Shown here one piece after another: positions 1 to 16,705 of a stretch of DNA of 64,000 nt (its first letter is position 1; each line of letters starts with the position of its first letter). Both the position numbers and the translations under genes were made by a program. Source of the DNA: Stappia taiwanensis (lineage in GTDB: Bacteria; Pseudomonadota; Alphaproteobacteria; Rhizobiales; Stappiaceae). The notes under the pieces were generated by a model, which was not told the DNA's origin, did no database searches, and worked only from the letters and a program-made list of their open reading frames with translations. The stretch spans positions 124,001 through 188,000 of the forward strand of contig NZ_BMCR01000003.1 of the NCBI RefSeq assembly GCF_014635285.1. Reading direction: 5' to 3'.

Positions 1-569
1 GCAGCCGGGGCTGTCTCCGCCGGCAGCTTGGAGAATTCGGTATAGGGCAGGAAGGGCAGGGGCTGGGCGAAGGCGCCGCGTTGGAACACCCCGTCGAAGT
101 CGTCCCCCTCAAGCGAGAACAGCCCGCCATTGTGGAAATAGGTCATCCGGCGTTCGGCGGGATCGAGCGCGGTGATCGCCACCGTCGTCTTGCCATGTTC
201 GCTGCGATAGCCAACCCCATGGGTGTCGGGCAGGAAATAGCTGTCGACCTCGACCAGGCACAGCCGGCCACGGGCGATCTGCTCCGCCACATGGTTCTCG
301 GTCCGGTCGTAAATCGCCAGTTCCTGTGCCCGGATGCCGTAAAGGGTTTCCAGATCCTCCAGCGGAACCTTGAAGAAGGTGAACTGGTCCCCTTCGAAAT
401 CCTGCGTCAGGGTGAAGCCGAGCATCGCCTCGGGCGTTTGCCCGAGCGCGTGCAGCACCTCGATCCACAGATCGACATAGCAGTTGGTTTCCGGCCAGAT
501 GCGTGTCGCCGCATGCAGGGCGTGCGGCTGGTAGCCATCAGGGCGAAGGGCGGCAAGGCGGGTGATCAT
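1..569 (-). CDS. DUF1839 family protein (3' part cut by window edge)
   Basis: An open frame runs from ATG at 569 to the left edge (189 codons seen, stop outside the window). The protein begins MITRLAALRPDGYQPHALHA and has the acidic, aromatic-rich character of DUF1839 proteins, which often accompany amino acid:carrier-protein ligases. It starts 14 bp after the ligase stop codon, so it is the last visible gene of a four-gene operon. No catalytic motif is recognised. By context it may handle the carrier-bound amino acid, for example by transfer or release, but that is inference. The family call is from memory of the sequence pattern and the neighbours. Confidence 0.75.
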   Translation of the reverse strand, partial: MITRLAALRPDGYQPHALHAATRIWPETNCYVDLWIEVLHALGQTPEAMLGFTLTQDFEGDQFTFFKVPLEDLETLYGIRAQELAIYDRTENHVAEQIARGRLCLVEVDSYFLPDTHGVGYRSEHGKTTVAITALDPAERRMTYFHNGGLFSLEGDDFDGVFQRGAFAQPLPFLPYTEFSKLPAETAPA

Positions 570-583
570 CGCGAGTGTGTCCG

Positions 584-1507
584 TTATCCCCACAGCGCCT
601 TGCGCACCGGCTCGGGCCAGTCGGCGGTGTCGAGCCCATGGCGGGCGAAAAGGGCGAGGGCGATCCGCTCCAGGCCGAAGCCGACACAGGCGGTGTGGGC
701 GGTCTCGCCGTTGACGGTCTTCAGGCCCCAGGTCTGGCCGAAATGGTCCTGATGGTAGTTGAAGCTGAGGCAGGCGGTCTTGGTGGTGGCCGAGGTCACC
801 GGGATCAACAGCTCGAACTTCAGCTTCTGTTCGCGCTGGTTGTTGCCGAGCATCTTGCCGGCGCGGCCGAAGAACGGATCATTGGCCGTGTCCAACTCTA
901 CATCAAGACCAACGGCAGAGACCAGCGTGCTGCCGCGCTCCATCCAGTCGCTGCGGAAGGCCATGACGTCGTCCGGCGTGCCGATGCGCACGAACTCGCG
1001 CATCCGGAACAGCTGCATCCGCGCCGGGTCCTTGGAAGGCTCGTGACGGAAGCAATAGGACTGCAGGTCGAAAAGACCGCCGCCTTCGGGCAGCGGGCCG
1101 CGCTTGGCGATGGTCGGGTAGAGCGGATAGCAGGCCGCCGGCGTCAGCACCACGTCGGTCGCTTCCTGCTTGCCGGTCCAGTCGTCACCTTCCGCCATGC
1201 ACTGCAGCAGGTTGACGTGGTCGAGTTCGCAGCCGCAGAAGCTGTGCACCGTACCGGCGAGCTGCGGGAAGCTCTTCATGTAGCCGGAGCCTTCGAAATG
1301 GGCCCGGTTCATGCCCGGCGGAAAGCGGATCACCTCCGCCGTGGCCTCGGGCGCATGGCGGGCGATCAGGGCTTCAAACCGGGCGATCACGTCTTCGAAG
1401 GCACCGCTGCGGCCATAAAGGCCGTCAACGCCGGTGTCGATCAGCAGGCCGGCGTCGAACAGCCGGTCAAGCAAATTGGTCTGCATGTCCATGTCGGTAC
1501 CCTTCAC
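584..1507 (-). CDS. amino acid--[acyl-carrier-protein] ligase (atypical SerRS homologue)
   Basis: 307 aa, too short for seryl-tRNA synthetase: it is the catalytic core without the N-terminal tRNA-binding coiled coil. The class II fold is visible, with motif 2 around residues 164-174 (RMREFVRIG) and motif 3 near 275-283 (GFGLERIAL). Presumed zinc ligands are C126 (PAACYPLY), E171 and C274. They sit at a constant offset of five from the ligands I recall for Bradyrhizobium Bll0957 (C131, E176, C279). Known members activate a small amino acid with ATP and load it on the phosphopantetheine arm of a carrier protein instead of tRNA. The carrier gene is two genes upstream. The start overlaps the dehydrogenase stop by 4 bp, indicating translational coupling. 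Substrate specificity cannot be read here. Confidence 0.9.
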
Positions 1508-2688
1508 GCCAAAAGGCTGGTGTCTTGCTTGTGGATCAGCAGCATGGTCGACGTATTGCCGAGAATGCGGTCGTTGGAGATCATCAACTGGGCGGAATGG
1601 GCATCGCGCAGATGCCGCCCCAAGCTATAGGGCGTGCCGTTCTTGTAGCCCAGGATGCCGCAGATCAGCATGCAATGGTTGATGATCGTCAGGATGGTCT
1701 GCGAACTGGCGATCTTGAGATTGTTCATCGCCACCGCAAAGCTCATGGCGGACAGCTTGTCCTCGTCGCCCCTCACCGCCTCATATTGCGTGAGGGCGGC
1801 AATGATGCTGGCCTTGACCCCCTGCAAGAGGGATGAGGCCTCGGCAACGCGCAAGGCGCCGGGCGGCATTGCCTCGGGCGAGCGGCGCGCGGCGGCGCGT
1901 ACGAAGGCCTGGGCCCGGGCGAAGGCATCGGCGGCGATGCCGTACCAGACGGCACTCCACAGAATATGCGCATGGGCGAGCATCGACTGGGCGGCGATCT
2001 CGGCAAAGGGGCGGGGCAGGATCTGCTGCGCCGGTGCCTCTCCCTTGAACACATAGCCGTCGGAGCAGGTGCCGCGCATGCCCAGCGCATCCCAGGTCTG
2101 GGTCTTGTCCAGGGTGTACTGGTCCTTCAGGAACACGGTCATCACCTGGTCGCTCGGCGCGGCATCCGCATGGGCGCGCGAGGTGATCAGGATCGCATCC
2201 GCCTGATCGCCATAGGAAATGACGGTGGCGTTCTTTTCCAGCCGGCAGGTGTCGCCGTCGACCTCGATCGCGCAGATCGAATTGCGCAGGTTTCCACCGA
2301 TACCGCCTTCCGTGGTGGCGGAGCCGAGCAGAAGCTGTTCCTCCGCCACCCGCGACATGAACGCTTCGTGCCAGCCGGCGCCGCTGCCATGAGAGACAAG
2401 GCTGGACACCTTGATCTGGTGCATGGCGAACACCATGGCGGCCGCCGAGCAGCCCTTGCCGAGGGTGGTGCAGATCTCGGCGATCTCCATCACCGAAACC
2501 CCTTCACCGCCCTGGGCAGTCGGGATCTGGATCCCCAGGAGCCGTTCGCTCCGCATGGCGGCAACCGCTTCGGCGGGAAACCGTCCTTGCACGTCGACCT
2601 GATCGGCATGTTCGGCGGCAATGGCGGCGACACGCTTCGCCCGGTCCATCAACGCCAGCGGTGCAACCGCGCCCTGGATGGTCATCAC
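1504..2688 (-). CDS. acyl-CoA dehydrogenase family flavoprotein
   Basis: 394 aa, the normal length for an acyl-CoA dehydrogenase. N-terminal helical domain, middle beta domain (about 120-225) and C-terminal four-helix domain ending with a run of small and polar residues before SLLA. It overlaps the carrier-protein gene by 4 bp upstream and the ligase gene by 4 bp downstream, so the three are coupled. In this setting the likely substrate is an aminoacyl thioester on the carrier protein rather than a free acyl-CoA, as with prolyl-carrier oxidases in pyrrole biosynthesis. That substrate is inference. The closest alternative is an ordinary short-chain acyl-CoA dehydrogenase or a flavin-dependent monooxygenase of the same fold. 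Confidence 0.85.
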
Positions 2689-2942
2689 GCGGCCTGCTGG
2701 TCTTTCGACAGTTCCGTCACCACCTCGACGATGGTCGCGATGGTGGAAAATGTCTTGCGGTTGAGGAGGTTTTCCGGGAACTCGATGTCGAACTCTTCCT
2801 CGATTGCCAGCATCAGCTGGACCGAGGCGAAGGAGGATAGGCCGGCCGCATAAAGATCGCTGTCCTCGTTGAGGGTGGCCGCGTCGACGGGGAGCTTGCC
2901 GTGCTGCGCCAGAATCGTTCGAATGGTGTCGGCAGTCGCCAT
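2685..2942 (-). CDS. acyl/aminoacyl carrier protein
   Basis: 85 aa, the size of an acyl carrier protein. The phosphopantetheine site is S37 within AAGLSSFASVQ, aligned on the usual G-x-D-S-L pattern, followed by the typical acidic helix LMLAIEEEFDIEF. It is the first gene of the operon. A good ribosome site (AGGAGAG) lies 9-10 nt before the ATG. It should be the partner of the amino acid:carrier-protein ligase two genes downstream, carrying an aminoacyl thioester that the intervening dehydrogenase could oxidise. It is unlikely to be the fatty-acid AcpP, because the DSL signature is altered and the neighbours are not fatty-acid genes. Confidence 0.9.
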   Translation of the reverse strand: MATADTIRTILAQHGKLPVDAATLNEDSDLYAAGLSSFASVQLMLAIEEEFDIEFPENLLNRKTFSTIATIVEVVTELSKDQQAA

Positions 2943-4529: not shown

Positions 4530-5342
4530 TCAGTCGATCAGGGCCGCCATGTCCCTGTGTCCGACATGGCTGGTCAGGCGCTTCTCGGCGAGCGCTTTGC
4601 GATGGGCCGCAGAGAAGCCGGCAAGCCCCTCCTGGTCGACGCCCATCTCGCGCGCTGCCGTGATCCAGCCATCAAGCAGCATCTCCTGAAACCCGGTCTC
4701 GTCGCTGCGTGCCTGCCAGTCGGACTGGCCTTCGGTGATCTTGAAGCCTGCAGCGGCAAAGGTGCGCGCCGCGTGATCGGCGGCTTCCGGCCCGAGTGCG
4801 GGACCAAAGCCCTTGTCGCCGCGCTGATGGGTGTTCATCGCCGCGCGCACGGTCTCGTCAAACGGATGCGGTGGGGAAACGGACAGGCGCCCATCATAGG
4901 TCAGCATCGCCAGGAATGGCAGCCGAGCACGGGCAAGGTCTGTGGCCAGCCGGTCAAGCCAATCGCTGGAGACAAGATCGAGAAACGCCGAGGTGGTGAC
5001 TGCATCGACCCCGTCGAGCAAGCCGGGCGGCACCCCATCGGCAAGATCCGCCTCGACAACCTCGACCGGGACATCGCTGGGCAATGTCAGGTCTTGAGCG
5101 ATGGCGACTAGCGCGGGATCGAATTCGGCCAGCCGCCAGCGGTGAGGAAAAGGCAGGTGTGGCGACAGCGCCCGTGCGCTGGCGCCTGTACCCGATCCCA
5201 GATCGAGCAGGGTCAGCGGGCGTTGGAGCTGTGCCTGGCGCTGTTTGAGTGCGGAGACGAATGCCTCGCGCACGGCCGCGTTGCGTGCCCTGAGGTCGAC
5301 CGGCTCGCGCAAGGCGAGCCACTGGTGGGAAAACCCGCTCAT
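4530..5342 (-). CDS. class I SAM-dependent methyltransferase
   Basis: 270 aa. Rossmann-fold methyltransferase with motif I LLDLGSGTGASARAL near residues 44-58, an acidic residue after the second strand (LAEFDPALVAIAQ) and a post-I motif VVEADLADG. It is the last gene of a four-gene operon. Its start overlaps the glycosyltransferase stop by 4 bp. The substrate is unknown. By context it may methylate a small molecule made by the pterin-synthase-like and glycosyltransferase enzymes encoded upstream. Confidence 0.8.
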   Translation of the reverse strand: MSGFSHQWLALREPVDLRARNAAVREAFVSALKQRQAQLQRPLTLLDLGSGTGASARALSPHLPFPHRWRLAEFDPALVAIAQDLTLPSDVPVEVVEADLADGVPPGLLDGVDAVTTSAFLDLVSSDWLDRLATDLARARLPFLAMLTYDGRLSVSPPHPFDETVRAAMNTHQRGDKGFGPALGPEAADHAARTFAAAGFKITEGQSDWQARSDETGFQEMLLDGWITAAREMGVDQEGLAGFSAAHRKALAEKRLTSHVGHRDMAALID

Positions 5343-6424
5343 TCGGACAGTCCTTCCAGAAGCTTTGCGAAGGTCCGGGCCTGATCGGCCCAGGTCGGCA
5401 AGGACAGGGCATGCCTTCGCGCGCCCTCGGCAAGCGTCCGGCGTTGCTCCGGATCGACAATCAGCCGGCGCAGGGCATCGGCGACTGCCTCCACCGCTCC
5501 GGCGGGAAGCACCAGGCCGGCGCAGGCCGGGACGGTGGTGGCGACAGCGCCTTCGCCGGTGGCGATGACCGGCAGACCATGCGCCATCGCCTCGGCAAAG
5601 GCCATGCCATAGCCCTCGTACAGGGTGGTCAGCACGAAGATATCGGCGGCGCGATAAAGAGAGGAGACTGCCTCTTCGGGCAGGGCGCCATGGACGGTGA
5701 TGCGGCCCCCGAGCCCCAGATCCTCGATCCGCCGGCAGATCTCTCCGGCATGATCGGGGTCCGCGTCCCGGCTGCCGGCGATATCGAGATGCCAGTCGAG
5801 ATCGGTCATCCGTGCCAGCGCCGCCAGCAGGGTGGGGTAGTCCTTGCGGCGGATCAGCGAGCCGACCGCGAGCAGGCGGACACTGGGGCTGACGCCGGAG
5901 GCGGCGTTCCTGTTCAGGTCAGGCTCTTGCGGCGGGATTGAAAGCGCCGGCTCGACAACGCCGATCCGCTCCGGCGGAACGGCAAACTCGCGGGTCAGGG
6001 TGCTTGCGGTTGCCGCGCTGGTCGTGATCACCTGCCGGGCATGAGCAAGGGCGGCGCGTTCGCGGGCGGTGAGCTCCGCCATCCGGTCCGTGCTCAGCCC
6101 GCTTTCATGGGCCAGCGGGTGATGCACCAGCGCGACCAGCGCCAAACGCTTGCCATGCCGGCTGGCCGCCGCATCGAGCACGCCATAGGCCAGGCCGTCG
6201 ATCACCACCCGCGTGCCGTCGGCAAGCCCGGACAAAAGCGCATCCGCCTCCGCCAGCGTCTCTTCCGATGGCGCAGGATAGCCCTCACCAAGGGAGTGAG
6301 CCTCGACCGCAATGCCGATGTCCTCCAGCGCTCTCAGGAGCTGGCGGTCGTAGACATAGCCTCCGGTCGGCGTTTCCAGCCGACCGGGGTAGAGAAAAAC
6401 GATTGGCCGCGACCCTGGCGTCAT
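5339..6424 (-). CDS. glycosyltransferase family 4 protein
   Basis: 361 aa, GT-B fold. The N-terminal acceptor domain starts IVFLYPGRLETPTGGYVYDR. The C-terminal donor domain has the linker RLLAVGSLIRRKDYPTLLAAL and the retaining E-x7-E signature (YEGYGMAFAEAM, about 275-286) typical of GT4. It overlaps the methyltransferase downstream and the pterin-synthase-like gene upstream by 4 bp each, so all three should be translated from one message. No lipopolysaccharide or exopolysaccharide genes are adjacent, so a small-molecule acceptor is more likely than a polymer. That is inference from context. Confidence 0.85.
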   Translation of the reverse strand: MTPGSRPIVFLYPGRLETPTGGYVYDRQLLRALEDIGIAVEAHSLGEGYPAPSEETLAEADALLSGLADGTRVVIDGLAYGVLDAAASRHGKRLALVALVHHPLAHESGLSTDRMAELTARERAALAHARQVITTSAATASTLTREFAVPPERIGVVEPALSIPPQEPDLNRNAASGVSPSVRLLAVGSLIRRKDYPTLLAALARMTDLDWHLDIAGSRDADPDHAGEICRRIEDLGLGGRITVHGALPEEAVSSLYRAADIFVLTTLYEGYGMAFAEAMAHGLPVIATGEGAVATTVPACAGLVLPAGAVEAVADALRRLIVDPEQRRTLAEGARRHALSLPTWADQARTFAKLLEGLSE

Positions 6425-6822
6425 GCGATTGGCGCTTCGTACCAGGCGCGAGCCACATGGGATTCGTGCAAGGAAACCCGGATCGAATGCAGCTCGTTTC
6501 CGGGGCGGCCGAGCCGGTCGGCCCGGGCGGCTTCGGCCAGACGGTCGTGGATGTGCCGGGTCAGGAATTCGGTGGTGGTGTTCTTGCCGGCGAATTCGGG
6601 CAGCTCATCCAGATTCTGGAAGTTGAGCGGCTCCAGCACCTCCTTCAGCACCTCATGCGCCCGGCCAATGTCGATGACGATGCCATTGGCGTCGAGCGAC
6701 TGGGCGAAAAAGGCCGCATCGACCACGAAGGTCGCGCCGTGCAGCTTCTGCGCCGGTCCGAAGACCGCGCCGGAAAACGAATGGGCAATCATGATGTGGT
6801 CGCGCACTTCAACGGCATGCAT
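6421..6822 (-). CDS. 6-pyruvoyl-tetrahydropterin synthase / QueD-like protein with altered active site
   Basis: 133 aa, the length of QueD/PTPS proteins. The fold is recognisable: first His in IMIAHSFSG (H14), LHGATF (H28), DANGIVIDIGRAHEVL, LNFQNLD, NTTTEF and the closing SLHESHVARAWYE. In canonical enzymes the middle motif is C-x3-HGH, giving the catalytic Cys and two zinc ligands. Here it reads AQKLHGATF, so the second HGH histidine is Ala and the Cys is absent. The protein may use a different zinc set or chemistry, or bind a pterin without the usual reaction. It lies 23 bp downstream of the MDR dehydrogenase gene and overlaps the glycosyltransferase gene. Confidence 0.8.
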   Translation of the reverse strand: MHAVEVRDHIMIAHSFSGAVFGPAQKLHGATFVVDAAFFAQSLDANGIVIDIGRAHEVLKEVLEPLNFQNLDELPEFAGKNTTTEFLTRHIHDRLAEAARADRLGRPGNELHSIRVSLHESHVARAWYEAPIA

Positions 6823-6845
6823 GGGATATCTCCAGACGAAAGGGA

Positions 6846-7877
6846 TCAGTTCTGTGGTTCGGCGTCCCGGTAATCGATCACCTGGGCGAGCGCTTCCCGT
6901 TCGCCGGAAAAAATGGCGGGAAGGAGTCCGGGGGCATCGTCGAACGCGATTGCAGGGGAGAGAAGCGCGTCGAGGACAGGCTCACGCAAAAGTGAAAGGG
7001 CGGTTGCAAGGCGCCGCCGGTAGCTCCAGCGGGCGCGTCGCTCCGGTGGCACCTGGCCGACCTGGCTCGACTTGAGCGTGAGGCGTCGGCTGTGAAAACC
7101 GCCGCCGAGATGTGCCGTCACCGGCGCGGTGCCATACCAGCTCATTTCCAGAACCGTGGCTTCCTGTCCGGCCAGCGCCAGCGCGGTGTCGAGCCCCGCC
7201 GGATTGCCGCTGGTGTGCAGCACAAGGTCCTGTTCGCCGGCCGCCTGATCGGGAGCGGCGAAGCCGGCGCCAAGCCGCCGGGCGATCTCCGCCCGCGCCG
7301 GATTGACATCGACAATGGTGACCCGGGTTGCCGGAATGCGCGCCGCGAGCCAGGCGGCGAGCAGCCCGACGACACCGCCGCCGACCACGGTAATGTGATC
7401 CCCCGGTGAGGCCCTGCCGTCCCATAACCCATTGAGAGCGGTTTCCATATTGGCCGCCAGCAGGGCGCGCTCGGCGCTCACCCCCTGAGGCAGGGGGAGG
7501 GCCGCCTCGGCGGGGAGGTTGAACCGGGTCTGATGCGGATGCAACGTGAACACGAGGGTGCCGGCAGGAAGTCCGTCTCCGGCGACGATATCGCCGACAC
7601 AGGCATAGCCGTACTTGACCGGGAAGGGGAACTCTCCCTCCTGGAACGGGGCGCGCATGCGCTGCCACTCGCTCTCGGGCACCTTGCCGGTGAAGACCAG
7701 CCGTTCGGTGCCCAGGCTGATGGCGCTGAAGCGGGCGCGCACCTGAACTTCACCGGTGCGCGGCGGGGGGAGGGGGGCCTCCCGCAGCGCCAGTTTCCGG
7801 GGAGCCTCGGTCCACAACGCACGGGTGTATGTCGTGTCGCGGCTAAAATTTTTTTTCGGCGTCGGGCTGTGCGTCAC
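6846..7877 (-). CDS. MDR-family (zinc-type alcohol dehydrogenase-like) oxidoreductase
   Basis: 343 aa medium-chain dehydrogenase/reductase. The nucleotide-binding glycine motif is VVGGGVVGLLAAWLAA near residues 165-180, with an acidic residue after the next strand (IVDVN). The GroES-like N-terminal part has FSAISLGTERLVFTG where zinc enzymes carry a Cys, so the catalytic zinc site appears to be missing. The pattern resembles the BchC-like branch of the family. It is the first gene of the operon with the pterin-synthase-like, glycosyltransferase and methyltransferase genes. It is divergent from mdoH across 90 bp. The substrate is unknown. Confidence 0.8.
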   Translation of the reverse strand: MTHSPTPKKNFSRDTTYTRALWTEAPRKLALREAPLPPPRTGEVQVRARFSAISLGTERLVFTGKVPESEWQRMRAPFQEGEFPFPVKYGYACVGDIVAGDGLPAGTLVFTLHPHQTRFNLPAEAALPLPQGVSAERALLAANMETALNGLWDGRASPGDHITVVGGGVVGLLAAWLAARIPATRVTIVDVNPARAEIARRLGAGFAAPDQAAGEQDLVLHTSGNPAGLDTALALAGQEATVLEMSWYGTAPVTAHLGGGFHSRRLTLKSSQVGQVPPERRARWSYRRRLATALSLLREPVLDALLSPAIAFDDAPGLLPAIFSGEREALAQVIDYRDAEPQN

Positions 7878-7967: not shown

Positions 7968-9866
7968 ATGCTTGGAAAACGTTTGCCCCATTTCCTCGCC
8001 CCCGACCAGCCCGCAAGCGGCGGCGCTGGTGAGGACCAAGATTTGGACCGGCCACGCGTGCACCGGCCGGACGATGCGCGCCGGCTGTTCTGGCGCCGTG
8101 CGCTCTTTCTGCTTCTGGTCGTTACCAGCATGGCCGGCCTGACCGCGCTTCTGACCATGAGCCTTGCCGGTAATGGCATCGGCTGGGGCGAAGGGCTGAT
8201 GATCGCCTGTTTCGTCGCCACCCTGCCTTGGACGGTGATCGGCTTCTGGAACGCGGTGATCGGCTTTCTGGTGATGCGTCTGTCCCGCGATCCGGTGGAA
8301 AGCGTCTGCCCGATCGCGCCGGGCAATGCCAGCCGGACCGGCTCCGCTTCTACGGCGATCCTCTCCTGCATCCGCAATGAGGATGTGGATCAGGTGGCGG
8401 TCAATCTCGATGCCATGGCTGCGGATCTGCACCAGGCCGGCCGCTGTGAGGGCTTCTCGATCTATGTGCTGTCCGATACGGACCAGCCGGAGATCGCCGC
8501 CCGCGAGGAAGCGGTCTTTGCGGCCCTGCATGACCGCTGGACGGGACATATCGACATCTTCTATCGCCGCAGATCCGACAATTCGGGCTTCAAGGCCGGC
8601 AATATTCGTGATTTTTGTGAGCGCTGGGGCGCGGGCCACGACTATGCGCTGGTGCTTGACGCGGACAGCTTCATGGCCGCGCCGGCCATTCTTGACCTGG
8701 TGGCGCGGATGGACGCCAACCCCCGTCTCGGCATTTTGCAGACCCTGGTGGTCGGCATGCCGACGGTCAGCGCCTTTGCCCGGATCTTCCAATTCGGCAT
8801 GCGCCTTGGCATGCGCTCCTACACCCTGGGCAGCGCCTGGTGGCAGGGAGAATGCGGTCCCTACTGGGGGCACAACGCGATCCTGCGTCTGGCTCCGTTC
8901 GCCGAGCATTGCCATCTGCCGGAGCTGCCGGGCAAGGGGCCGCTGGCCGGCACGATCCTCAGCCATGACCAGGTCGAGGCGGTGTTGATGCGCCGGGCCG
9001 GCTACGAGGTGCGGGTGATCCCGCGTGAGACCGAGAGCTTTGAGGAAAACCCGCCCAACCTGCTGGAGTTCATCCGCCGCGATCTGCGCTGGTGTCAGGG
9101 CAATCTGCAGTATCTCAAGCTGCTGCGGATGCCGGGTCTTTATCCGCTCAGCCGGTTGCAGTTGCTGTTGGCGATCCTGATGTTCACCTCCGCCCCCGCC
9201 TGGCTGGCCTTCATGGCAACCGGCGCGGCACTGGCGGCGCTGAACAGTGGTGAGATGGTGCAGATCAACGCGGCGGCGGGTCTGGCCCTGTTCGCCACCA
9301 TCCTGACGATGATCTTCGCGCCGAAGATCGTCACGGTGATCGACATTCTGGCCCGCCGCGAATTGCGGACTGCCTATGGCGGCGGCGTGCGGGTGGTCGT
9401 CAGTGCGCTGACCGAGATCGTGTTTTCCGCGCTGCTGGCGCCGGTGATGGCCATTGCCGTGTCGCTGTTCATCGCCGGGCTGCCCTTTGGCCGCGCCATC
9501 GGCTGGGGCGCGCAGGTGCGCGAAACCAAGGGGCTGCCCCTTGGCCTTTGTGCCAGCAAGCTCTGGCCGCAGACCCTGTTCGGTGTGTCGGGCATCGCCT
9601 TTGCCGCCTGGCTGTCGCCGGTGCTGATCTGGCCGCTGTTGCCGGTGGTGCTGGGTCCGGCGCTGGCCGTGCCGCTGTGCATGGTGCTGTCGCGCCGCGA
9701 TGTCGGCGAACTGGCCCTGGCCACCCGGCTGTGGCGCCTGCCGGAAGAAACCGTGCCGCCCACCTGCCTCCTGCCGCTGCGCCTTCCGGCCCATGCCTCG
9801 CTCGGCGTGTCCTTCGCGCCGGTCGGTGCGATGTTCGGGGCCGAGGTGGAAAACGCCGAAGCCTGA
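7968..9866 (+). CDS. mdoH: glucans biosynthesis glucosyltransferase H
   Basis: 632 aa, the short form of OpgH/MdoH (the enterobacterial protein is longer). It builds and exports the beta-glucan backbone of osmoregulated periplasmic glucans from UDP-glucose. Visible are two N-terminal membrane segments (about 45-110), the GT2 domain with SCIRNEDVD, the metal-binding DADSFM, the acceptor-site RRDLRWCQGNLQY, and several C-terminal membrane segments. The ATG at 7968 is chosen because AAAGG precedes it and the sequence upstream is not conserved-looking. mdoG is not in the window. The succinyltransferase gene opgC lies 7 kb downstream on the same strand. Confidence 0.92.
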   Translation: MLGKRLPHFLAPDQPASGGAGEDQDLDRPRVHRPDDARRLFWRRALFLLLVVTSMAGLTALLTMSLAGNGIGWGEGLMIACFVATLPWTVIGFWNAVIGFLVMRLSRDPVESVCPIAPGNASRTGSASTAILSCIRNEDVDQVAVNLDAMAADLHQAGRCEGFSIYVLSDTDQPEIAAREEAVFAALHDRWTGHIDIFYRRRSDNSGFKAGNIRDFCERWGAGHDYALVLDADSFMAAPAILDLVARMDANPRLGILQTLVVGMPTVSAFARIFQFGMRLGMRSYTLGSAWWQGECGPYWGHNAILRLAPFAEHCHLPELPGKGPLAGTILSHDQVEAVLMRRAGYEVRVIPRETESFEENPPNLLEFIRRDLRWCQGNLQYLKLLRMPGLYPLSRLQLLLAILMFTSAPAWLAFMATGAALAALNSGEMVQINAAAGLALFATILTMIFAPKIVTVIDILARRELRTAYGGGVRVVVSALTEIVFSALLAPVMAIAVSLFIAGLPFGRAIGWGAQVRETKGLPLGLCASKLWPQTLFGVSGIAFAAWLSPVLIWPLLPVVLGPALAVPLCMVLSRRDVGELALATRLWRLPEETVPPTCLLPLRLPAHASLGVSFAPVGAMFGAEVENAEA

Positions 9867-15031: not shown

Positions 15032-15322
15032 GGGTATGGTCTACCTCTTTCCACCCTTGGGCCGGAAGGCTTCCTTTTCCAGTTGGCGCGCCGCGCGGGC
15101 AAATGCATTTCCCCAGGCGCGTGCTATTTGGAATATGGGCACTTTCGGGCGACGATCCTGACACGGCTGCCACAAGTTATTGTGTCTTGCGTGTCATTGG
15201 GGCAAGCGGAACACTCTGAGCCTCTCAGGAGAGGTCCGGCGCTCGGTCCGCGCCACCGTTCGGCCATGCTTTGCCCGCGATTGTGCGTCAAGACCTCCCG
15301 ATCGCACATTCAAGAGGCTGCC

Positions 15323-16705
15323 ATGAGCATCATCGACCCCTTTGGATACCCGTTGACCCTCACCGAGCCGGAGGCGCTTGCGCCCTGGAGCGGCACGGTC
15401 AATGCATTCCTGGCCCATGGCAAGGCAACCCCGGATCTGATCGGCGAGGCGCTGGCCTGCGATCCGCAGTTCGCCATGGGCCATGCGACGCACGGCCTGT
15501 TCTGCCTGTTGCTCGGGCGCCGGGAACTCTTGGCGGTGGCCGAGGGCGACTGGCGCGATGCCGATGCCGCGCGCCGGCTGGCGCCGGTGACAGCGCGCGA
15601 GACGGTGGTGATCGATGCGCTGCGCGACTGGCTCGACGGCTTTCCGCGAAAAGCGGCCGCCCGGCTCGATGCGGCGCTCGCCGACTTTCCTGCCGATCCA
15701 CTGCTGATGAAGCTGGCCCATGCGATCTACTTCGTGCTGGGCGAAGCTGCCGCGATGCGGCGCTCGGTGGAGAAGGTCCTGCCCGTCTATGGCGCCGATC
15801 ATCCGGCGCTGGGGTACACGCTTGGTTGCCATGCCTTCGCGCTGGAGGAAACCGGTGCCTATGCCGAGGCGGAGCGGGCCGGGCGACAGGCGCTGGAGCT
15901 TGCCGCCGACGATGCCTGGGGGCTGCACGCGGTGGCCCATGTCTATGACATGACCGGACAGGCCGAGACGGGGCGGAAATGGTTGGAGGGCCACACCGCC
16001 ACCTTCGCCCATTGCAACAATTTCGGCTATCACGTGTGGTGGCACCTGGCGTTGATGTATCTCGACAAGGGCGACATCGGCGAGGTGCTGTGGCTCTACG
16101 ATACCAGGATCCGGCGCGATCACACCGACGATTACCGCGACATTTCCAACGCCGCCTCCCTGCTGGTGCGGCTGGAGATCGAAGGCGTGGATGTAGGCCA
16201 GCGCTGGGAGGAACTGGCGCGGCTGGCGGAAACCCGGATCGACGACCGCTGCAATGTCTTCGCCAACCTTCACTACATGCTGTCGCTGAGCGGCGGCGGC
16301 CGCAGGCAAGCGGCCGACCGGATGCTCTCCGCCCTGTCCGGCTGGACGGAGGATCACTCGGACATGGGTGAGGTCGCCGCCCGCACCGGTCTGCCGGTGG
16401 CGCAGGGACTGGAGGCCTATCAGCGCGGCAATTTCTTCTCCGCCTTCCACCATCTTGACCGGGCGCGGCCGGGGCTTCAAAGCATCGGCGGCAGCCATGC
16501 GCAGCGCGATGTGTTCGAGCAACTGGCAATCGATGCGGCCCTGCGTGCCGGTCTTGCCGAGGATGCGGAACGCTTGCTGCGCGAGCGACAGGCGCTGCGC
16601 GGCGCCACCGATCGTTTCGCCAGCGAGCGGCTGGCGCAGGTGGAGCGGATGCGCCGCGCCGAGCGGGTCATGGGCGACGAGGGTCTGCGGGCCGTGCCCC
16701 TTTGA
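15323..16705 (+). CDS. tetratricopeptide-repeat protein, TTC38-like
   Basis: 460 aa, soluble, almost entirely helical. It contains TPR-like helix pairs, e.g. ALGYTLGCHAFALEETGAY and AWGLHAVAHVYDMTGQAETG, and the invariant-looking HCNNFGYHVWWHLALMYLDKG (given as two parts: HCNNFGYHVWW, HLALMYLDKG). These features match the TTC38 family of unknown function. The ATG at 15323 is preceded by AGAGGCTGCC. The opgC gene follows after 49 bp on the same strand, so co-transcription is possible. No enzymatic residue set is known for the family. Confidence 0.75.
   Translation: MSIIDPFGYPLTLTEPEALAPWSGTVNAFLAHGKATPDLIGEALACDPQFAMGHATHGLFCLLLGRRELLAVAEGDWRDADAARRLAPVTARETVVIDALRDWLDGFPRKAAARLDAALADFPADPLLMKLAHAIYFVLGEAAAMRRSVEKVLPVYGADHPALGYTLGCHAFALEETGAYAEAERAGRQALELAADDAWGLHAVAHVYDMTGQAETGRKWLEGHTATFAHCNNFGYHVWWHLALMYLDKGDIGEVLWLYDTRIRRDHTDDYRDISNAASLLVRLEIEGVDVGQRWEELARLAETRIDDRCNVFANLHYMLSLSGGGRRQAADRMLSALSGWTEDHSDMGEVAARTGLPVAQGLEAYQRGNFFSAFHHLDRARPGLQSIGGSHAQRDVFEQLAIDAALRAGLAEDAERLLRERQALRGATDRFASERLAQVERMRRAERVMGDEGLRAVPL

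Follow-up and report, generated by a model that had tools for sequence, protein, structure and literature searches.

A carrier-protein aminoacylation operon of Stappia taiwanensis with a predicted amide synthase-like DUF1839 protein and a possible glycan target

The genes for a stand-alone carrier protein (CP), an ACAD-fold flavoprotein (ACAD), an amino acid:[carrier protein] ligase and a DUF1839 protein at the start of the window, the 64,000-nucleotide stretch of Stappia taiwanensis DNA analysed here, form the first part of a five-gene operon whose fifth gene, encoding a GH2 glycosidase, lies outside the window (Table 1). The operon is a copy of a gene set already known from bacteria, which attaches an amino acid to a small CP; new here are the fold matches of DUF1839, the Ile or Val that occupies the Glu376 column of the ACAD protein, and four ligase-less relatives. 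On balance, we lean slightly towards the operon being a module dedicated to the aminoacylation of a glycan, in which DUF1839, as its modelled fold suggests, may hand the amino acid to an amine that is probably on a cell-surface sugar.

Table 1 Features of the operon and their positions.
Feature	Position	Strand	Details
Stand-alone carrier protein (CP)	2685..2942	(-)	85 aa; S37 in GLSS; PF00550 3e-9; NF005480 113 bits
ACAD-fold flavoprotein	1504..2688	(-)	393 aa from ATG at 2685; PF02771/PF00441; without canonical catalytic Glu
Amino acid:[carrier protein] ligase	584..1507	(-)	NF005479 512.8 bits; C126, E171, C274 (GTG numbering)
DUF1839, N-terminal 189 codons only	1..569	(-)	PF08893; C30, T128/T129, H146
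GH2 family protein	L002:9027-11522, wholly left of window		831 aa; fifth operon gene

The initial annotation located its four genes correctly but missed the GH2 gene, which starts 45 bases past DUF1839 and is conserved among DUF1839 loci, ruling out a plain four-gene operon. DUF1839 is cut by the window edge; its full protein of 333 aa (L002:11568-12569) ends 433 bases to the left. Of the close coupling described for the four genes, the 14-bp gap between ligase and DUF1839 stands, whereas the two 4-bp overlaps (CP/ACAD and ACAD/ligase) depend on GTG starts. When the ATG starts from gene calling are used instead (MTIQ.. and MDMQ.., the latter as in relatives), CP and ACAD overlap by 1 bp (TGATG) and ACAD and ligase are separated by 11 bp. 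The conserved ligase start is probably the ATG at 1492, giving 302 aa.

The ligase and the CP score above the NCBIfam cut-offs of NF005479 (357 bits) and NF005480 (72 bits). The earlier proposal that the operon performs chemistry on a carrier-bound amino acid, its product being unsettled, is supported. The ligase matches 4h2w (1e-100) and 3mey (3e-96) in the PDB, and a stretch of 11 residues resembles the segment that distinguishes 4h2w from 3mey. C126, E171 and C274, which we take to be the zinc ligands, align with identical residues in 4h2w, and S37 of the CP sits in its GLSS motif; the initial annotation had described these sites as intact. The 4h2w structure includes a CP like that of Stappia, and the best PDB matches of the cognate CP, encoded beside the ligase, are 4h2w_C and Atu2571 (2jq4), at about 1e-24, Atu2571 being the closest solved relative of this CP. 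Outside the closest relatives of the host (L091-L094), the ligases of named loci are 71-80% identical to this one. Close homologues adenylate a small amino acid and load it onto the phosphopantetheine of a CP, and the ligase would do the same as the first step of the pathway. An aSerRS-like ligase/CP/Atu2574 system of Agrobacterium, which has its ligase and CP families and its neighbourhood in common with the Stappia operon, was reportedly described by Mocibob et al. in 2010. To our knowledge, no use of the amino acid loaded on such carrier proteins has been established since the first description of the ligases. Among the papers listed in literature searches, none was seen to report a use for it; the excerpts of two papers (PMC12930378 and PMC6594144) concern DltA. 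A short note by Iyer et al. (2010) describes, in the part available, neighbouring genes for an ACP, a redox enzyme, a conserved ORF, a glycosidase and polysaccharide functions, and calls the redox enzyme Rossmann-fold, in contrast to the ACAD fold of the Stappia model (PMC2922099).

A survey of gene neighbourhoods, as the initial annotation had proposed, covered 117 DUF1839 loci and found ACAD in all 117, GH2 in 116 (it is missing from L055), the ligase in 113 and the CP in 111, on one strand by gene calling; this recurrence indicates that the neighbourhood does not arise by chance. The gene order was kept in 80/80 named loci, a figure that leans to close relatives because these are the best 80 of at least 582. 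In four genomes (L051-L054), CP, ACAD, DUF1839 and GH2 are kept and the ligase was not found. A replacement loader inside these operons was rejected, as the intervals from ACAD to DUF1839 span only 120, 66, 85 and 15 bases.

The DUF1839 protein scored 430.1 bits against PF08893 (cut-off 22.5) and was modelled with a pLDDT of 93.9. All 18 solved structures found by Foldseek at E<=0.001 were CcbD, CtaG or AziU3/U2, and structural comparison (VIA) gave Z scores of 16.6-19.6 over 274-292 residues, with the next row at 7.4. The likeness of the model to CcbD and CtaG favours the suggestion that DUF1839 is a group-transferring enzyme and is new evidence for this putative role, which had been predicted in print in 2010 (excerpt of PMC2922099); the link to CcbD makes that short prediction concretely testable. 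AziU3/U2, which ranks first among the Foldseek matches, has been described as an aziridine synthase and not an acyltransferase (according to the excerpt of PMC12559475), and since it shares the fold and has other chemistry, the fold alone leaves the chemistry of DUF1839 unfixed.

CcbD is a ping-pong amide synthase with prolyl-CP as donor and a thio-octose amine as acceptor (excerpt of PMC12945683). CcbD and LmbD resemble DUF1839 over nearly the whole length of the fold (Z 18.8-19.6), although sequence identity is 12-13%. The catalytic Cys of CcbD (C19, from the title of 9dks) lies near the N-terminus, like C30 of DUF1839, which is placed at the start of helix 30-41 in the model. This Cys is kept in 116/118 copies, two loci having an in-operon DUF1839 without it; the H146 motif is present in 118/118 copies and an H-x-K-T/S-T/S motif in 115/118. 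The conserved K281, R289 and R293 of DUF1839 may correspond to the CP-binding arginines 312-324 of CcbD, as a C-terminal offset of 31 in the structural comparison hints. The DUF1839 site is given as C(T/S)H (excerpt of PMC10318531), in contrast to the Cys-His-Glu triad of CcbD. CtaG, the closthioamide peptidyl transferase, also shares the fold (Z 16.6-17.9), but its acyl group and acceptor differ, as its predicted reaction takes hydroxybenzoate off a carrier protein and joins it to tri-beta-alanine bound to another (excerpt of PMC6772006); the solved C11, H128 and D144 variants suggest that CtaG has a conventional triad. The Cys-His-Glu/Asp order of the CcbD/CtaG type is not found in DUF1839, which from its model may work like a CP-dependent amide synthase of this type and is not filed as a member. 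The lincosamide clusters also differ in their loader, a stand-alone A-domain (excerpt of PMC4351081) rather than the class II aaRS-like ligase of Stappia.

The butirosin enzyme BtrH (PF14399) is, according to the excerpt of PMC10318531, a papain-like ACP:aminoglycoside acyltransferase. Both proteins are papain-like, but membership of DUF1839 in BtrH_N was set aside, a profile comparison with eight of the nine BtrH_N proteins found being not significant (hhalign probability 4.4%). An 11-sequence DUF1839 profile matched only 5hu4 (E 1.2) among PDB sequences, and no match was found in PHROGs. The DUF1839 alignment comprised 41/44 listed sequences and a further one 42/50; the L044 protein, which contains a stop codon with tblastn coordinates, was aligned with the called coordinates.

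The ACAD protein carries PF02771 (2.8e-10) and PF00441, and its model (pLDDT 91.8) adopts the ACAD fold, with Z scores of 38.0-40.4 among the 50 structural matches listed. The initial annotation had placed a dehydrogenase between CP and ligase; the fold agrees, but the dehydrogenase chemistry is weakened by the residues at the MCAD 376 and IVD 254 places, which we take to be the catalytic Glu positions. The Glu376 column holds Ile in 121 and Val in 4 of the 125 called copies (Ile369 in Stappia), and Glu was found at neither the MCAD place nor the IVD-type place (isovaleryl-CoA dehydrogenase Glu254) in 20 aligned copies; four of the six ACAD paralogues of the same genome have Glu at the MCAD place. 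Ordinary acyl-CoA dehydrogenation thus appears unlikely from the Glu376 column. By sequence, its solved relatives include both dehydrogenases and flavin monooxygenases, and a choice between the two by structural score was abandoned as the Z values tie. Monooxygenation is at least as likely as dehydrogenation, and was also proposed in the 2010 note (excerpt of PMC2922099). In the second step, the flavoprotein would modify the aminoacyl group on the CP; monooxygenation or some other non-classical oxidation is the likelier chemistry here, ahead of an alpha,beta-dehydrogenation that depends on Glu. The rival for this step alone is a true dehydrogenase that yields a dehydro- or imino-aminoacyl-CP, chemistry known from ColB1 and the prolyl-carrier-protein dehydrogenases. 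It draws on the ACAD fold itself, on the match to ColB1 (7xp7, titled 'Assembly Line-Tethered Cysteine Dehydrogenation'; Z 39.1), on the two best PDB profile matches, both dehydrogenases, on prolyl-ACP dehydrogenase (4irn, 1.1e-11) and on NF045652 (1.2e-6; 27.6 bits, cut-off 650), but with no Glu at either place we regard it as rather unlikely.

In the third step, the papain-like DUF1839 would take the group from the CP onto Cys30 and pass it to an amine to form an amide; this step is modelled on CcbD, with its prolyl-CP and amino sugar, and suggested by the fold, the conserved Cys and the operon. The two papain-like Cys activities, hydrolysis and transfer, also allow DUF1839 to be a thioesterase or editing hydrolase that frees the oxidised amino acid from the CP, making the operon an amino-acid oxidation route. 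That reading corresponds to the 'release' option of the initial annotation and is favoured by nine loci in which ACAD is tied to the ligase without DUF1839, but we consider it improbable, since two CP-linked acyl transferases share the modelled DUF1839 fold along almost its entire length and the conserved GH2 partner would be left unexplained. E418 and E499 are present in 115/115 GH2 proteins longer than 700 aa, and GH2 gave the only PADLOC match (35 bits). In Stappia, the annotated neighbours are most often polysaccharide genes, and flippase-type, Wzz, GT4, GT2, GumK-like, GH5 and polysaccharide deacetylase proteins are encoded near some loci; a GTc glycosyltransferase is near 40/80 named loci and was not found in the other 40, and inspection by eye of the L111 gene list revealed no glycosyltransferase. 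GH2 and these neighbours, both absent from the initial reading, point to a sugar acceptor. In the fourth and least certain step, judged from this context, the acceptor would most likely be an amino sugar belonging to the precursor of a surface polysaccharide; GH2, apparently cytoplasmic, may process that glycoside. Within the host family, DUF1839 is present in all 47 genomes whose ligase exceeds its cut-off, which also favours the glycan module.

The same enzymes could instead build a soluble, lincosamide- or closthioamide-like amide natural product, with GH2 trimming a glycoside intermediate. CcbD and CtaG, the acyl-transfer fold matches, serve small-molecule antibiotics, and the core is self-contained and patchy: it occurs in 51/87 genomes of the host family and 5/385 over the class, with a patchy presence in Rhizobiaceae; the ligase exceeds its cut-off in 47/87 host-family genomes, and among those of phylum-draw group f175, 6 have it and at least 9 do not. 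Outside the core, every gene cluster was confined to at most 74 of the 134 stretches analysed. A small-molecule product nevertheless seems unlikely to us, as a single compact operon, and not a bigger cluster of varying content, recurs across many genera among those best 80 of at least 582 relatives, and in view of the polysaccharide genes of Stappia. Counted against the glycan module were the ligase-less operons, the two Cys-less DUF1839 proteins, L055 without GH2, the non-universal polysaccharide neighbours and the patchy distribution, as well as the other chemistry of AziU3/U2, the departure of DUF1839 from the usual Cys-His-Glu/Asp order and the missing BtrH_N profile link. Extending the glycan module is more tentative: DUF1839 might be a widespread papain-like amide synthase family with a rearranged Cys-Thr/Ser-His site. 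It would be supplied by an aaRS-like loader in place of an NRPS module and, after flavin-dependent oxidation of the CP-bound amino acid, put an as yet unseen oxidised aminoacyl group on surface-polysaccharide amino sugars in Rhizobiaceae, Stappiaceae and some other families of Pseudomonadota. If the predicted CcbD-like role holds, a single module in bacteria of soils, plant-associated habitats and the sea would combine a synthetase-derived loader with lincosamide-type condensation and the decoration of glycans.

Phylum-draw loci were fetched for 27/45 matches (20/28 over the cut-off), and ACAD adjoins the ligase in all 20 strong-ligase loci fetched, 9 of which are without DUF1839 and GH2; this counts in favour of the second step. 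The type II ligase loci L181-L189 have the ACAD-ligase pair (9/9), with a CP nearby on the opposite strand in 7/9 (none was found in L188 and L189), but differ from the Stappia operon in that neither DUF1839 nor GH2 occurs in the 14-20 kb fetched. Clades were compared in 28 chosen loci (27 for GH2), with support values for ACAD, ligase, DUF1839 and GH2. The ligase 'B' clade (8 rows) was recovered in the ACAD (support 100) and DUF1839 (94, not starred) trees, indicating that ACAD, ligase and DUF1839 share one history and arguing against an ACAD-ligase cassette that moves alone; among ACAD, DUF1839 and GH2, it was rejected only for GH2 (p-AU 4e-7). Pairwise identities over 25 loci correlated at 0.82 for ACAD and ligase, 0.74 for ACAD and DUF1839, 0.68 for ligase and DUF1839, 0.48 for ligase and GH2, and 0.46 for ligase and CP.

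The initial annotation described four genes at the left edge of the window (C3:124001-188000 within a 4.42 Mb, 20-contig genome), encoding a stand-alone carrier protein (CP), an acyl-CoA-dehydrogenase-like flavoprotein (ACAD), an amino acid:[carrier protein] ligase and a DUF1839 (PF08893) protein. All four are present on the minus strand, but the count was one short: DUF1839 is completed beyond the window edge and a GH2 glycosidase gene begins 45 bases past it, so that the operon comprises five genes. Among the matches listed, Stappia indica SN13-18 is the closest named relative at this locus, its DUF1839 being 95% identical.

Genes of the operon and its divergent neighbour (window positions, or positions in the fetched host locus L002)
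Gene	Position	Strand	Remarks
CP	2685-2942	minus	
ACAD	1504-2688	minus	
Ligase	584-1507	minus	
DUF1839, first 189 codons	from 569 leftwards	minus	
DUF1839, whole (333 aa)	L002:11568-12569		completed outside window
GH2 (831 aa)	L002:9027-11522		PF22666, PF17753
Thiolase, divergent	start 3257		NF006551, 3-oxoadipyl-CoA thiolase

The five genes lie on one strand in the Stappia order in 80/80 named loci by tblastn (the best 80 of at least 582 relatives). By gene calling at 117 DUF1839 loci, ACAD is present at every one, GH2 at 116, the ligase at 113 and CP at 111, with the operon neighbours on a common strand in every pair. The median gaps of the four neighbour pairs were -1, 5, 8 and 16 bases, and gaps of ≤100 bases occurred in 105/111, 113/113, 112/113 and 95/116. 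At least two of the absent CPs are gene-caller misses, because tblastn detects CP in loci L054 and L153. Of 87 Stappiaceae (host-family) genomes, 51 carry DUF1839, among them all 47 with a ligase over the cut-off, as do 5 of 385 genomes sampled across the class. Upstream of the operon, many Rhizobiaceae carry genes for EF-P, a class II lysyl-type tRNA-synthetase-like protein and a lysine-2,3-aminomutase-like radical SAM protein (clusters c6-c8, 56-57 of the 80 named loci; families checked in the single locus L100, L100:4549-7382), reflecting either a functional link or mere synteny.

The AlphaFold model of DUF1839, built with 41 sequences, had a mean pLDDT of 93.9 and a pTM of 0.92, and all 18 of its PDB matches at E≤0.001 were AziU3/U2, CtaG or CcbD. 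VIA-align Z scores were 18.8-19.6 for CcbD, 18.6-18.9 for AziU3/U2 and 16.6-17.9 for CtaG, the next row reaching 7.4, with 274-292 residues of these proteins aligned at 3.6-4.1 Å and 10-13% identity. In excerpts of the respective papers, CcbD works by a ping-pong mechanism in which its own Cys first takes up proline from the CP and then passes it to the amine of a thio-octose sugar (PMC12945683). A role as closthioamide peptidyl transferase has been proposed for CtaG (PMC6772006), and AziU3/U2 is an aziridine synthase (PMC12559475). Because AziU3/U2 performs aziridine synthesis, acyl transfer is unproven by the fold alone. Literature searches for DUF1839, BtrH/papain-like proteins, CcbD and CtaG found no paper tying DUF1839 to CcbD. 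Passages of PMC10318531 assign DUF1839 to the papain-like proteins, give its site as C(T/S)H and suggest that it acts in glycan processing in an acyl-CoA-dependent manner; in our reading of these passages, T128/T129 take the usual His place. All 118 copies carry the H146 motif and 116 of them the Cys; H125 is likewise invariant in the 41-sequence alignment. The copies without Cys are the in-operon ones of loci L175 and L180. L180 holds two copies (L180:10449-11357 and 15232-16299), the in-operon one lacking Cys and the second, intact, lying ~4 kb off.

The flavoprotein has the ACAD fold. Its catalytic columns were assigned by MAFFT and HMM alignments, with Glu376 of MCAD and Glu254 of IVD taken by us to be the catalytic residues. 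The MCAD Glu376 column is occupied by Ile in 121 and Val in 4 of 125 called copies, and Glu is absent at the IVD Glu254 place in 20/20 aligned copies. Four of six ACAD paralogues in the host genome have EGT or EGS at the MCAD Glu376 place, and two do not. By profile, the solved relatives are a mixture, comprising 7p98 (cyclohexene-carboxyl-CoA dehydrogenase, 4e-24), butyryl-CoA dehydrogenase (2e-22), 3m9v, presumably KijD3 (2e-20), DnmZ (3e-20), nitrososynthase (1e-19) and, more weakly, DszC (7e-16) and prolyl-ACP dehydrogenase (1e-11). KijD3, DnmZ and nitrososynthase oxidise amino sugars at nitrogen. We propose that the flavoprotein would oxidise the CP-bound group by a non-standard route; monooxygenation is our first guess.

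The ligase most resembles Bradyrhizobium ligase 1 (4h2w, 1e-100; 3mey, 3e-96), and an 11-residue stretch is 4h2w-like in a part of the alignment where these two structures differ. 4h2w, which we take to be a chimera built for the Agrobacterium CP, carries a CP resembling Atu2571 (2jq4), the closest solved relative of the Stappia CP. Homologues of the ligase load glycine or alanine. The host-family ligases form two groups, the second on a long branch. Two positions ahead of the zinc-binding Glu, 13 ligases, including 8/9 of the second group, have Gln in place of Met; a switch in the loaded amino acid is possible.

Across the phylum, the ligase exceeded the cut-off in 28 of 398 sampled genomes, with patchy presence: in group f175 it occurs in 6 genomes and is absent from at least 9. 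Twenty of the 28 loci were fetched; ACAD adjoins the ligase in 20/20, while DUF1839 and GH2 are both present in 11 and both lacking in 9. ACAD and ligase therefore form a constant pair, and DUF1839 with GH2 looks like an optional output stage. At seven loci whose ligase relatives are weak (about 30% identity), none of the partners was detected at E≤1e-4. The second locus type (L181-L189) has ACAD-ligase, with CP on the opposite strand in 7/9, and neither DUF1839 nor GH2. The genes after ACAD-ligase in L188 encode a Cys/Met-metabolism PLP enzyme and a homoserine O-succinyltransferase-like protein, and relatives of both follow in L189. Four Stappiaceae genomes (G031, G038, G052 and G060; loci L051-L054) keep CP, ACAD, DUF1839 and GH2 with intact motifs, the CP of L054 being visible by tblastn only, and no ligase was found at E≤0.001 anywhere in them. 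Either the carrier must be loaded otherwise in these genomes or the system must work differently there.

In the excerpted text of Iyer et al. 2010 (PMC2922099), a note in proof lists a neighbourhood of ACP, redox enzyme, conserved ORF, glycosidase and liposaccharide genes, the redox enzyme is considered probably a monooxygenase, and the Agrobacterium protein Atu2574 is predicted to join an amino acid to a cell-surface sugar via an amide. The Stappia operon therefore belongs to an already described, unproven system, to which our analysis adds the CcbD/CtaG link, the absent catalytic Glu, a core of five genes, two types of locus and variants that lack the ligase. E418 (GGSE) and E499 are invariant in 115/115 GH2 proteins and, from their position, are the putative acid/base and nucleophile; inspection by eye revealed no obvious signal peptide at the N-terminus. 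In part of the family, ligase, ACAD and DUF1839 share a clade that the GH2 tree (27 loci) rejects (p-AU 4e-7); the glycosidase therefore has a history of its own. Near the operon in Stappia lie genes for GT4 enzymes, a flippase-type protein (PF01943), a GH5, a polysaccharide deacetylase and an alpha/beta-hydrolase, and relatives additionally have Wzz, GT2 and a GumK-like transferase. These neighbours vary by locus, with a GTc relative in 40/80 and an alpha/beta-hydrolase relative in 48/80 named loci. A tight minus-strand set at window 4530-7877 encodes methyltransferase, GT4, PTPS (QueD-like) and zinc-dehydrogenase-like proteins and adjoins an MdoH-like glucosyltransferase gene (7968-9866); relatives of the set were called in 15-17 of 25 fetched loci (L037-L061).
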